Below are positions 44,083 to 49,497 of a DNA stretch of 64,000 bases, in pieces. Origin of the DNA: Halostagnicola kamekurae. Its GTDB lineage: Archaea; Halobacteriota; Halobacteria; Halobacteriales; Natrialbaceae. The notes under the pieces are model-generated. The model was not told where the DNA came from. It did not search any database and worked only from the letters and a program-made list of their open reading frames with translations. The number at the start of each line of letters is the position of its first letter. Position 1 is the stretch's first letter. The stretch is taken from the NCBI RefSeq assembly GCF_900116205.1, contig NZ_FOZS01000002.1, forward strand, positions 744,001 to 808,000, given 5' to 3'. Position numbers and translations under genes: made by a program.

Positions 44083-45313
44083 ATGTCTTCACCAGACAAC
44101 GGCTCTGATACCAGTCAGGGCGGTCGAGTTCTTCCAGGGCACGTTAGATTCCACTGAAGAAATCGAAACTGCTCGAGTCTTCGATACGACGCTCCGGGAT
44201 GGCGAACAGTCCCCTGGAACGTCGTTCTCTTACGACGACAAGCGCCAGATCGCCTCGATCTTGGACGAGATGGGCACCCACGTAATCGAAGCTGGGTTCC
44301 CCGTCAACTCCGACGCGGAGTTCGAGGCAGTCCGGGATATTGCTTCGGCAACCAACACGACGACCTGCGGGTTAGCCCGCGTCGTCGATGCGGATATCGA
44401 AGCGGCGTTAGATTCCGGCGTCGAGATGGTTCACGTCTTCGTGAGCACGAGCGACGTCCAGATCGAAGATTCGATGCACGCCACACGAGACCAGGTCGTA
44501 CAGAACGCAGTCGAGTCGGTCGAGCGCGTCGTCGACGCGGGAGCAACCTGTATGTTCTCCCCGATGGACGCGACGAGAACCGACGAGGCGTTCCTGATAG
44601 ACGTGATCGAAGCGGTCACCGAGGCGGGAACCGACTGGATCAACATCCCCGACACCTGCGGCGTCGCCACGCCCGGCCGATTCCAGGCGATGATCGAGAA
44701 GGTATGTGCACACACCGACGCGCGCGTCGACGTCCACACCCACGACGACTTCGGGTTGGCGACCGCGAACGCGATCGCCGGCATCGAAGCCGGCGCCGAT
44801 CAGGCCCAGGTATCGGTCAACTCCATCGGCGAGCGGGCGGGCAACGCCGCCTACGAGGAGTTCGTCATGTCCGTCGAATCCCTCTACCAGGTCGATACCG
44901 GTATCGACACTACGCGGATCACGGAGCTCTCCGACATCGTCGAGGACAAAAGCGGCATGGAGACGCCGGGCAACAAGCCCGTCGTCGGCGACAACGCCTT
45001 CTCTCACGAGAGCGGCATCCACGCCGCGGGCGTGATCGAAAACTCCGACACGTTCGAACCGGGCGTCATGACCCCCGAGATGGTCGGAGCCGAACGCAAA
45101 CTGGTCATGGGCAAACACACCGGCACGCACTCCGTCCGCGAGCGCCTGCACGAACGCGGGTTCGATCCCACCGACGAGCAGGTTCGCGCGGTCACCCGAC
45201 GGGTCAAAGACTACGGCGCCGAAAAGCGCCGCGTCACCGTCAGCGACTTAGAGCGCTTCGCCGAGGAGGCCGACGTCGAGCGCACACAGGAAAGAGAGGA
45301 GGTGCGCGCCTAG
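44083..45313 (+). CDS. leuA: 2-isopropylmalate synthase, frameshifted near the 5' end
   Basis: A LeuA/homocitrate-synthase family enzyme condensing acetyl-CoA with 2-oxoisovalerate. From ATG 44083 the first frame (MSSPDNGSDTSQGGRV) stops at 44157. The enzyme continues in the frame of 44126 onward (VEFFQGTLDSTEEIETARVF, then DTTLRDGEQSPGTSFSYDDK). No ATG, GTG or TTG precedes the catalytic LRDGEQ motif in that frame. Adding back one GTCGA unit at 44123-44128 joins the parts into 411 residues. The rest is intact, with metal-binding HTHDD and SNGIHAAG-like HESGIHAAG. Recent mutation, recoding or a sequencing error are all possible. Confidence 0.88.
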
Positions 45314-45421
45314 GGATGTTCTCCCCGTTTGCAAGCGTTCTCGAGCACCGGCTACGCCACCAGACCGACTCGAGTGAAACGCACAAGAGTTATGATAGTC
45401 GAAGGTGCAATACTCGAGGTA
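45314..45421 (+). promoter_or_regulatory. Promoter of the ilv-leu operon
   Basis: Between leuA and the short leader ORF lies a TATA-like AGTTATGATA (45389-45398), 24-33 bp before ATG 45422. It fits transcription starting at or next to that ATG. leuA ends at 45313 and has its own promoter, so the ilvB-to-leuD genes probably form a separate unit beginning here. Confidence 0.5.
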
Positions 45422-45502
45422 ATGAGATCACGCCCACAGCGGTCGGCCGACGCGGCCGAGACCGGCGTGTTCGCTCCGTTCGCTATTGTAGGGGCCGTCT
45501 AG
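45422..45502 (+). CDS. Putative leader peptide of the ilvB operon
   Basis: A 26-codon ORF, ATG 45422 to TAG 45502, at the predicted transcript start. It reads MRSRPQRSADAAETG then VFAPFAIVGAV, ending with Ile, Val and Val codons. The last codons and the stop overlap a stem-loop. The layout resembles a bacterial-style leader for branched-chain amino acid control, placed 114 bp before ilvB. Translation and regulation are inference; ORF, promoter spacing and hairpin are seen. Confidence 0.5.
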   Translation: MRSRPQRSADAAETGVFAPFAIVGAV

Positions 45503-45507
45503 CCCCT
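45490..45507 (+). promoter_or_regulatory. Hairpin overlapping the ilvB leader stop codon
   Basis: AGGGGC (45490-45495), loop CGTCTA, GCCCCT (45502-45507): a perfect six-pair GC-rich stem whose loop contains the first two bases of the leader TAG stop. A ribosome stalled on the terminal Ile/Val codons would cover the left arm. No T-run follows, so it is not a classical terminator. Confidence 0.5.
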
Positions 45508-45616
45508 CACACACCTCCTTCTCGTTCCGGCCTCGCATCGATCACCAGCCACCAGTCAGCCAGCAGATACCACAGCACATGACAACTGATCGCCACCAAA
45601 CGGCGGGAGGATTCCA

Positions 45617-47431
45617 ATGAGCGAACGCGCGACCTCGGTCACGTCACCGACCGACACGGACGAACCAGGGGAACAGCACGCGGACGAATCGACGGCGTCG
45701 GACGCGTCGACGCCAACGGCGGACGGAGAAACCGAGAAAGCGCCCGTCACGACGGGCGCGCAGTCGGTCATCCGGGCCCTCGAGAACGCGGGCGTCGAGT
45801 ACGCATTCGGCGTGCAAGGCGGCGCGATCATGCCCGTCTACGACGCGCTGTACGATTCGGACATCTACCACGTGACGATGGCCCACGAACAGGGGGCCGC
45901 CCACGCGGCCGACGCCTACGGCATCGTCTCGGGCGAACCGGGCATCTGCCTGGCGACCTCGGGGCCGGGGGCGACGAACCTCGTCACGGGGATCGCGGAC
46001 GCCGACATGGATTCGGATCCGATGCTCGCGCTAACCGGACAGGTCGCGCGAGATTTCGTCGGCAACGACGCGTTTCAGGAGACCGATACGACCGGCGTCA
46101 CGACGCCGGTGACCAAGGACAACACGTTCGCGAGCGATCCGGACACGGTCGGCTCGGACGTGAGCGAAGCGTTCGCGCTCGCACGCGAGGGCCGACCGGG
46201 ACCGACACTGGTCGACCTCCCGAAGGACGTCTCGAACGCGGACACCGACTGCGAGCCCGACGAACCGACGGTTCCGGACACCTACGAGGTTCAGGAGCGC
46301 GCCGATCCCGAAATCGTCGAACAGGCCGCGCGACGGATCGAGAACTCGAGCAAACCCGCCCTGCTACTCGGCGGCGGCGTCATCAAGGGCGAGGCCAGCG
46401 AGGCCTGCCGCGAGTTCGCGATCGAACACGAGATCCCGGTCATCACGACGATGCCCGGCATCGGTTCGTTCCCGGAGGATCACGAACTGTCGATGGAGAT
46501 GGCCGGCATGCACGGCACCGGCTACGCCAACATGGCGATCACCCACTGTGACACCTTAATCGGCATCGGAACGCGCTTCGACGACCGCCTGACCGGCGGC
46601 ATCGAGACGTTCGCGCCCGACGCCGAACTGATCCACGTCGACATCGATCCGGCGGAGATCTCGAAGAACATCCATGCAGACTATCCGCTGATCGGCGACG
46701 CCGAGACGGTCGTCACGCAACTGGCCGAGGAGATGGAGTCCTCGCCACAGGCGACGAAGTGGCGGGCCCAGTGTCAGCAGTGGAAGTCCGACTACTCGAT
46801 GGCCTACGACGCTCCCGAAGACAGGCCGATCCAGCCGGAGTTCGTCGTCGAAGCCCTAGACGAGGCGACCAGCGATCGAGCGGTCGTGACCACCGGCGTC
46901 GGCCAACACCAGATGTGGGCCTGCCAGTACTGGACGTTCACCGAGCCGCGCACGTGGGTCTCGAGTCACGGGCTGGGCGCGATGGGCTACGGCCTGCCCT
47001 CGGCGATCGGCGCGCGCATCGCCGCCGACGACGACCAGGAGGTCGTCTGCATCGACGGCGACGGCTCGTTCCTGATGACGCTGCAGGGCCTCTCTGTCGC
47101 GGTTCGGGAGAACCTCGACATCACCGTCGTCGTGCTCAACAACGAGTACATCGGCATGGTTCGACAGTGGCAGGACGCCTTCTTCGAGGGTCGTCACTCC
47201 GCTTCCGAGTACAATTGGATGCCCGAGTTCGACAAACTCGCCGAGGCCTTCGGCGCGAGAGGGTTCCGGATCGACGAGTACGACGAGGTCCCAGACACCA
47301 TCGAGGAGGCGCTTTCCTACGACGGGCCGTCCGTTATCGACGCGCATATCGATCCGCAGGCGAACGTCTACCCGATGGTGCCAAGCGGCGGCGACAACGG
47401 CCAGTTCGCGCTGGCGGAGGACCAGCTATGA
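45617..47431 (+). CDS. ilvB: Acetolactate synthase large subunit
   Basis: A 604-residue ThDP enzyme making acetolactate or acetohydroxybutyrate, the first common step of valine, leucine and isoleucine synthesis. After a 45-residue acidic N-terminus come ALENAGVEYAFGVQGGAIMP, the catalytic Glu in MAHEQGAAHAADAYG, the FAD-linked middle domain, and the ThDP motif GDGSFLMTLQGL ... VVVLNNEYIGMVRQWQ. The ATG at 45617 follows a GGCGGGAGGATT stretch that may act as ribosome-binding site. It overlaps ilvN by four bases. Confidence 0.95.
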   Translation: MSERATSVTSPTDTDEPGEQHADESTASDASTPTADGETEKAPVTTGAQSVIRALENAGVEYAFGVQGGAIMPVYDALYDSDIYHVTMAHEQGAAHAADAYGIVSGEPGICLATSGPGATNLVTGIADADMDSDPMLALTGQVARDFVGNDAFQETDTTGVTTPVTKDNTFASDPDTVGSDVSEAFALAREGRPGPTLVDLPKDVSNADTDCEPDEPTVPDTYEVQERADPEIVEQAARRIENSSKPALLLGGGVIKGEASEACREFAIEHEIPVITTMPGIGSFPEDHELSMEMAGMHGTGYANMAITHCDTLIGIGTRFDDRLTGGIETFAPDAELIHVDIDPAEISKNIHADYPLIGDAETVVTQLAEEMESSPQATKWRAQCQQWKSDYSMAYDAPEDRPIQPEFVVEALDEATSDRAVVTTGVGQHQMWACQYWTFTEPRTWVSSHGLGAMGYGLPSAIGARIAADDDQEVVCIDGDGSFLMTLQGLSVAVRENLDITVVVLNNEYIGMVRQWQDAFFEGRHSASEYNWMPEFDKLAEAFGARGFRIDEYDEVPDTIEEALSYDGPSVIDAHIDPQANVYPMVPSGGDNGQFALAEDQL

Positions 47432-49120: not shown

Positions 49121-49158
49121 TCGACGAACGAACACAGCTCGAGAACGAACGAATACAG

Positions 49159-49497
49159 ATGACACGAGAGACAGAACCGACGGCACCCGATACCGGTACG
49201 TCGGCGGAGTCGGCGTCGGGTTCAGGGGAGAGTATGGCTGAAATCAGCCACACCAACCCCTACACCGACGAATCGACTGGACAGCTGTTCAGTCGCGGCC
49301 CCGTCGTCGCTGCCGATGGCGGCGAGGCAGACGCCGTCGAATCGACAGACGACCGACCGGAGCGAGCGGCGACGGACGAGCGGACGATGCGAACCGTCAG
49401 TCACACGCCACCGACCGAAGCGACGGAGACGAACCGAACGAATCGGGTCTTCGAACGGGGGCGCGTACGAACCGACGGGATCGAGGACGACAGATGA
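49159..49497 (+). CDS. Small acidic protein of unknown function between ilvC and leuC
   Basis: A 112-residue protein I do not recognise. It is polar and probably disordered, with Glu/Thr/Ser-rich ends and two motif-like stretches: HTNPYTDESTGQLFSRGPVV and SHTPPTEATETNRTNRVFER. Both contain a SHT(N/P)P-then-F-R pattern, which suggests an internal duplication. Its TGA overlaps the leuC ATG (ATGA 49494-49497), so it is translated with the operon. A role as chaperone, regulator or scaffold of the leu/ilv enzymes is only speculation. Confidence 0.65.
   Translation: MTRETEPTAPDTGTSAESASGSGESMAEISHTNPYTDESTGQLFSRGPVVAADGGEADAVESTDDRPERAATDERTMRTVSHTPPTEATETNRTNRVFERGRVRTDGIEDDR

Follow-up and report, generated by a model that had tools for sequence, protein, structure and literature searches.

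The ilvBNC operon of haloarchaea is probably controlled by a ribosome-sensing, attenuator-like leader that couples its expression to how fully tRNA-Ile and tRNA-Val are charged. We base this proposal on comparative sequence analysis of a small element that lies ahead of ilvB in a window of 64,000 nt from Halostagnicola kamekurae (Natrialbaceae; NZ_FOZS01000002.1, assembly GCF_900116205.1, positions 744,001-808,000 of the forward strand), together with its counterparts in other Halobacteria and similar arrangements ahead of several tRNA-ligase genes.

The leader and its genomic setting

The gene order in the window is leuA, the leader, ilvB-ilvN-ilvC and then leuC-leuD-leuB. The first gene of the operon, ilvB (45617-47431, plus strand), encodes the acetolactate synthase large subunit (TIGR00118 above cut-off), and the profile models for ilvN, ilvC, leuC and leuD likewise exceed their own cut-offs, with a weaker match for leuB. 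A first-pass annotation of this DNA had described a TATA-like element, a 26-codon open reading frame (ORF) with terminal Ile, Val and Val codons, a perfect six-pair hairpin overlapping the stop codon of that ORF, and an ilvB start 114 nt further on, all of which agree exactly with the sequence. It had also placed the ORF at the predicted transcript start, a start deduced from the spacing between TATA-like element and ATG.

Specifically, the TATA-like element TTATGATA (45390-45397, plus strand) is located 32 nt 5' of the ATG at 45422, and the leader ORF (45422-45502, plus strand; 26 codons and UAG, probably on a leaderless mRNA) encodes MRSRPQRSADAAETGVFAPFAIVGAV, with the C-terminal end Phe-Ala-Ile-Val-Gly-Ala-Val-stop (FAIVGAV). 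The codons ATT (Ile, 45485-45487) and GTA (Val, 45488-45490), which we regard as the candidate control codons given their conservation in relatives, adjoin the 5' arm of the hairpin AGGGGC-CGUCUA-GCCCCU (45490-45507, plus strand). Its 5' arm (AGGGGC, 45490-45495) and 3' arm (GCCCCT, 45502-45507) enclose the loop CGTCTA, such that the A of GTA at 45490 is the first base of the stem and the leader UAG (45500-45502) falls in the loop and 3' arm. The ilvB ATG at 45617 follows 114 nt beyond this stop. By energy alone the isolated stem is modestly unusual (-13 kcal/mol, z = -2.8, with 2 of 200 shuffles equally good), but we judge the element not to be a chance occurrence because it is conserved across the class. 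The window's own genome carries eight ATHGTAGGGG sites, and a leader is found only at the ilvB site.

The neighbouring gene leuA (44099-45313) displays a peculiarity of its own. No in-frame ATG, GTG or TTG precedes its catalytic RDGEQ motif, and a leaderless ATG opens a 24-codon ORF (MSSPDNGSDTSQGGRVLPGHVRFH followed by a stop, 44083-44157) that overlaps LeuA in a +1 relation. This overlap is present in 60 of 61 distinct haloarchaeal loci, and its conservation suggests that leuA is expressed by a +1 frameshift or from a non-AUG start. The leuA start problem has been flagged in about 16 genomes, with speculation about slippage under leucine scarcity (PMC8305020). The conserved 0-frame CTT at the overlap may simply follow from the coding of EFF in LeuA.

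Conservation of frame, codons and hairpin among Halobacteria

A covariance model of the element matches 367 of 392 Halobacteria genomes, representing 78 of 86 genera, and the exact sequence pattern is present in 295 of the 392. Among the matches listed, nearly all of the leader-like copies examined lie between leuA and ilvB. Twenty genomes that lack a covariance-model match were checked; ilvB is present in all 20 and a diverged leader in at least 11, with ends such as AVVGAR, VVVGAV, PIVGPA, GIIGIIGIIGAPQ and several IVGV or IVGA forms. Matches outside Halobacteria (five genomes, E 0.001-0.008) are taken to be chance, because one is a copy of the motif that is not a leader and the remaining four are motif-free. 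In a sample of relatives comprising 94 distinct regions upstream of ilvB (protein identity 65-100%), a short ATG-initiated ORF ending IVGA, IVGAx or IVGV occurs in 91 and the pattern AT[TCA]GTAGGGG in 92.

A stray leader of the ilvB type (ending LIVGV, with hairpin) was observed away from ilvB in genome G216 (locus L111, minus strand, about 1500-1600), where it precedes a small gene ending HTPPHEAPGANRVFERGNEGRR. The window holds a small ORF related to this gene (HTPPTEATETNRTNRVFERG) at about 49155-49497, in the interval from ilvC to leuC.

Several features indicate that the frame of the leader matters. With an ATG required within 110 nt, the leader frame is ATG-open through the motif in 91 of 92 relatives, compared with 0 and 9 for the other two frames. 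Among 88 non-redundant loci, the leader ATG and the motif are separated by 42 to 114 nt, always a multiple of three, and in nearly all of them a TATA-like element starts near -32 (range about -29 to -36) relative to the leader ATG. Spacing in multiples of three from an ATG that is independently set by the TATA-like element fits a leaderless transcript under selection for frame. From this conservation of frame we infer that the leader, like the ORFs of attenuators that carry codons for the regulated amino acid, is translated, and the TATA spacing would place the transcription start at or next to the leader ATG. The body of the encoded peptide is unconserved in relatives and has no GC3 bias, which argues that what matters is probably not the peptide product itself. 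Ile accounts for 0.6% of residues in the body and is concentrated at the end.

The choice of control codons is similarly restricted. Among 92 relatives the Ile codon is ATT in 84, ATC in 7 and ATA in 1, with no other codon, and the Val codon is GTA in all 92. In the same ilvB genes GTA makes up 0.5% of Val codons and ATT 6.4% of Ile codons. Pairing is no explanation for the retention of GTA, since the codon is kept even where the outer pairs are unformed; pairing of its outer bases is limited to a fraction of copies (20% and 57% at two positions for ilvB, and 5% and 10% for valS). Diverged copies of the leader carry VV or II in place of Ile-Val. The base 5' of ATT is almost always T, whatever amino acid is encoded, and this preference, like the strong nucleotide-level conservation in general, might be expected if an RNA-binding protein or a small RNA recognised UAUUGUAGGGG and the hairpin, with the ORF being incidental. 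We consider such recognition very unlikely, given that frame and start are conserved, that the Ile codon changes only synonymously or with a switch to VV or II, and that cognate codons recur at valS, thrS and pheS as described below.

The hairpin is the second constant component. GGGG:CCCC pairing is present in all 116 copies, with loops of 3-8 nt, and the stop codon is confined to three positions, +2, +5 or +17 nt after GGGG (34, 70 and 12 copies), which places it within the hairpin in 104 of the 116 copies and just beyond it in the others. Formal covariation is weak because the GGGG/CCCC stem core is almost invariant. Compensated changes are nevertheless seen: the inner pair changes from C-G to U-A, and in one ilvB leader and three valS leaders the fourth pair is C-G instead of G-C. 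In other families the stem is extended to UGUAGGGG/CCCCUACA.

In some families the element forms a near-perfect inverted repeat, TGTAGGGGN(3-8)CCCCTACA, and could thus be imagined as a DNA operator that binds a transcription factor within the transcribed leader. A dimeric factor should favour half-sites at a fixed spacing, but here the half-sites stand 3-8 nt apart, conservation extends much further on the 5' side than on the 3' side, the element always keeps to the frame of an ATG-open ORF that includes it, and thrS and pheS are preceded by the same layout with different sequences, all of which makes an operator highly improbable. We consider exceedingly improbable the proposal that an IVGA nascent peptide arrests the ribosome in response to a free amino acid, in the manner of TnaC or ErmCL. 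Although the C-terminal IVG[AV] is the sole conserved part of the peptide, arrest peptides hold their motif at a fixed distance from the stop, whereas IVG is here followed by the stop at 2, 3 or 7 codons with no other change and an unconserved body, and the leaders of thrS and pheS share the layout without a peptide motif in common.

Downstream of the hairpin, about 20 nt are strongly G-poor, with a mean G content of 7.6% in the first 18 nt compared with 17-21% beyond; in the window this pyrimidine/AC-rich tract spans 45507-45530 (plus strand). A U-tract directly 3' of the hairpin is not conserved (T runs of at least 4 in 15% of leaders versus 10% after shuffling). A second, T-containing element with the consensus GMAYCGNTTTCNGA lies 25-37 nt past the hairpin in about 60% of loci (a score of 10/12 or better in 53 of 88 relatives, compared with 0.5 expected after shuffling), and the window carries a degenerate copy with an eroded T-run (45535-45548, plus strand). 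No common structure other than the stop hairpin was detected by RNAalifold on 43 and 45 leaders, and no competing partner strand was found, since GGGG occurs downstream in 0 of 88 leaders and CCCC upstream without excess.

The first-pass annotation had suggested that ribosome position sets the folding of the downstream RNA, and had proposed comparing the peptide end and stem among haloarchaea. That comparison turned out favourably, in that the ORF, the Ile-Val codons, the stem and the leaderless promoter are kept nearly wherever ilvB occurs. The suggestion itself was too broad: the stem at the stop is conserved, but an alternative partner or other downstream structure is not. A candidate pairing of CCUCC in the window with GGAGG before ilvB was likewise dropped, as it is not conserved and Shine-Dalgarno (SD) sequences are not used in H. 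volcanii 5'-UTRs.

Matching leaders at tRNA-ligase genes

Within the same family, leaders with cognate codons also precede valS, thrS and pheS, and a Trp-rich leader precedes trpS, which strengthens the translation-linked reading of the ilvB leader. The valS leaders were first flagged by secondary matches of the ilvB covariance model in the search of the phylum, approximately 180 nt upstream of valS. An ORF ending VFVG[AP]x or a close variant (VFVGA, for example) is present in 19 of 20 upstream regions, with a TATA-like element mostly near -30 and a GTA that sits directly on GGGGC..GCCCC or GGGCC..GGCCC, and such leaders also occur outside Natrialbaceae (L357, L366). The thrS gene was chosen without prior hint, and here the leader MVGVRFTGAFARF or a close variant is found in 22 of 30 loci, in each of which its single Thr codon is ACA (22 of 22; 3% usage), with an adjoining GGGC..GCCC hairpin in most.

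We examined pheS on the prompt of a published H. volcanii uORF table (PMC4983044) and found a leader ending GFGFFFAR in 22 of 30 loci. In most of these the hairpin begins immediately 3' of the last Phe codon and holds the stop in its loop, and its arms change together (GCCCGG/CCGGGC, CCCGCG/CGCGGG, CCCCGG/CCGGGG). Table 2 of that publication gives transcribed uORFs of 26 and 23 aa in the long 5'-UTRs of pheS and a trpS, but ilvB, valS and thrS are absent from the table, and the accompanying section makes no mention of cognate codons, a hairpin or conservation (PMC4983044). At trpS a Trp-rich leader is present in 13 of 30 loci (divergent paralogues included) without an abutting hairpin. The thrS and pheS leaders repeat the layout found at ilvB with no common peptide motif, and all four tRNA-ligase leaders are present in the window's own genome (L178, L263, L333, L404). 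No clear leader was seen upstream of ileS. Because some of the tRNA-ligase genes were chosen on expectation, the number of positives is not an unbiased rate.

Additional conserved elements accompany these genes. About 30-90 nt past the stop of the pheS leader (L158-L187) there is another hairpin (CGGUGGA..CCGCGAGC..GCUCGCGG..CGAAACCG), longer than the first and interrupted by an internal loop. Its arms vary in concert from species to species, and it is possibly a further regulatory RNA. Most valS loci (L333-L357) carry a near-invariant CCCGTTTCGACGGATGTATTGT..CGACCAG, a mini-hairpin with a UUCG loop, 3' of the leader hairpin. At L363 and L364 (genomes G177 and G326) an acetolactate-synthase-like gene follows a leader that ends in PVFVGAA and has the same hairpin; this leader uses Val-Phe-Val like valS rather than Ile-Val. 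At trpC no leader was seen, and in many loci (L218-L246) the start is instead overlapped by a conserved TGTACA palindrome, TTGTACAT..ATGTACAA. This palindrome resembles the TGTACA box of TrpY, an archaeal repressor, and the trp genes therefore seem to be under DNA-level control.

A candidate mechanism and its relation to known systems

Ribosome-mediated transcription attenuation is familiar from the trp, his, ilvGMEDA and pheST leaders of enterobacteria. In these, too, a short ORF carrying codons for the amino acid under control stands next to a GC hairpin, ahead of the corresponding biosynthetic or tRNA-ligase gene. The haloarchaeal leader differs in being archaeal and leaderless, in having control codons that touch the 5' arm, and in having one conserved hairpin that contains the leader stop, rather than mutually exclusive antiterminator and terminator hairpins or a hairpin with an immediate U-tract. 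Lacking an antiterminator partner, it is not a classical trp-type switch.

Bacterial ilvB uORFs have also been described (PMC10272879, PMC11857589), and these too are upstream of ilvB and rich in branched-chain amino-acid codons, whereas only one or two control codons are constant in the haloarchaeal leader; for Corynebacterium, an ilvBNC attenuator with three hairpins is described (PMC11857589). By their descriptions, the ilvB-II and ilvB-OMG RNA motifs are set apart by taxa and structure. T-box riboswitches control aminoacyl-tRNA ligase and amino-acid genes by tRNA charging as well, but they bind tRNA directly without translation, and the conserved ORF in haloarchaea points to the ribosome as the sensor. 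A cmscan search of Rfam at E values up to 5 returned only chance matches for the ilvB leader, none near the gathering score, and no match at the pheS, thrS, trpS and valS loci. Within the open full-text literature, outside which most subscription journals fall, we found general statements on archaeal coupling and no archaeal leader-peptide attenuator.

We propose that transcription would begin at or next to the leader ATG, as the TATA spacing implies, and that the first ribosome would load directly on the leaderless mRNA. It would then meet the conserved Ile-Val codons, including the rare GTA, that abut the 5' arm of the small GC hairpin. If charged tRNA is sufficient, the ribosome should reach the stop inside the hairpin and leave, allowing the hairpin to form. 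If Ile or Val is scarce, the geometry predicts a stall with the 5' arm in the ribosome footprint and the hairpin blocked; a ribosome whose A site holds ATT or GTA should span about a dozen bases 3' of it and thus mask the whole 5' arm. As there is no alternative partner strand, a ribosome at the stop would also block the hairpin, such that the switch would have to work by timing or dwell.

The least certain step is the last, in which the hairpin, serving as a putative terminator, and the G-poor tract would lower read-through into ilvB and starvation would turn the operon on. The output would most likely be pausing and premature termination, possibly aided by the archaeal termination factor FttA/aCPSF1. 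We favour termination because the transcription machinery of H. volcanii co-purifies with that of translation (PMC8576121) and because a hairpin alone terminated 59% of transcripts in an H. volcanii reporter (PMC7237163). A less likely alternative is that the same sensor has another output, with the hairpin or the post-termination ribosome governing ilvB re-initiation or mRNA stability. The transcript and ORF architecture is equally compatible with such an output, no U-tract terminator follows the hairpin, and a stop inside the hairpin could govern ribosome recycling. However, ilvB lies at a long and variable distance (about 50 to 250 nt or more), no pairing with the ilvB start region is conserved, and sequestration of an SD sequence is unlikely because H. 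volcanii does without SD in its 5'-UTRs (PMC3986360).

Leader-peptide attenuation is textbook bacterial biology and requires coupled transcription and translation together with a termination decision, and archaeal RNA polymerase and its termination factors resemble the eukaryotic ones. We put at about even the chances that haloarchaea possess a class-wide, multi-gene set of one-hairpin, codon-abutting leaders on leaderless mRNAs (ilvBNC, valS, thrS, pheS and perhaps trpS) that read tRNA charging via the ribosome and act on archaeal RNA polymerase, constituting attenuation without an antiterminator. If true, archaea also use leader-peptide attenuation, and archaeal transcription-translation coupling would become testable with a simple reporter. 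The arrangement would also supply a search rule for more leaders, namely a leaderless ORF in which a cognate codon directly adjoins a GC hairpin.
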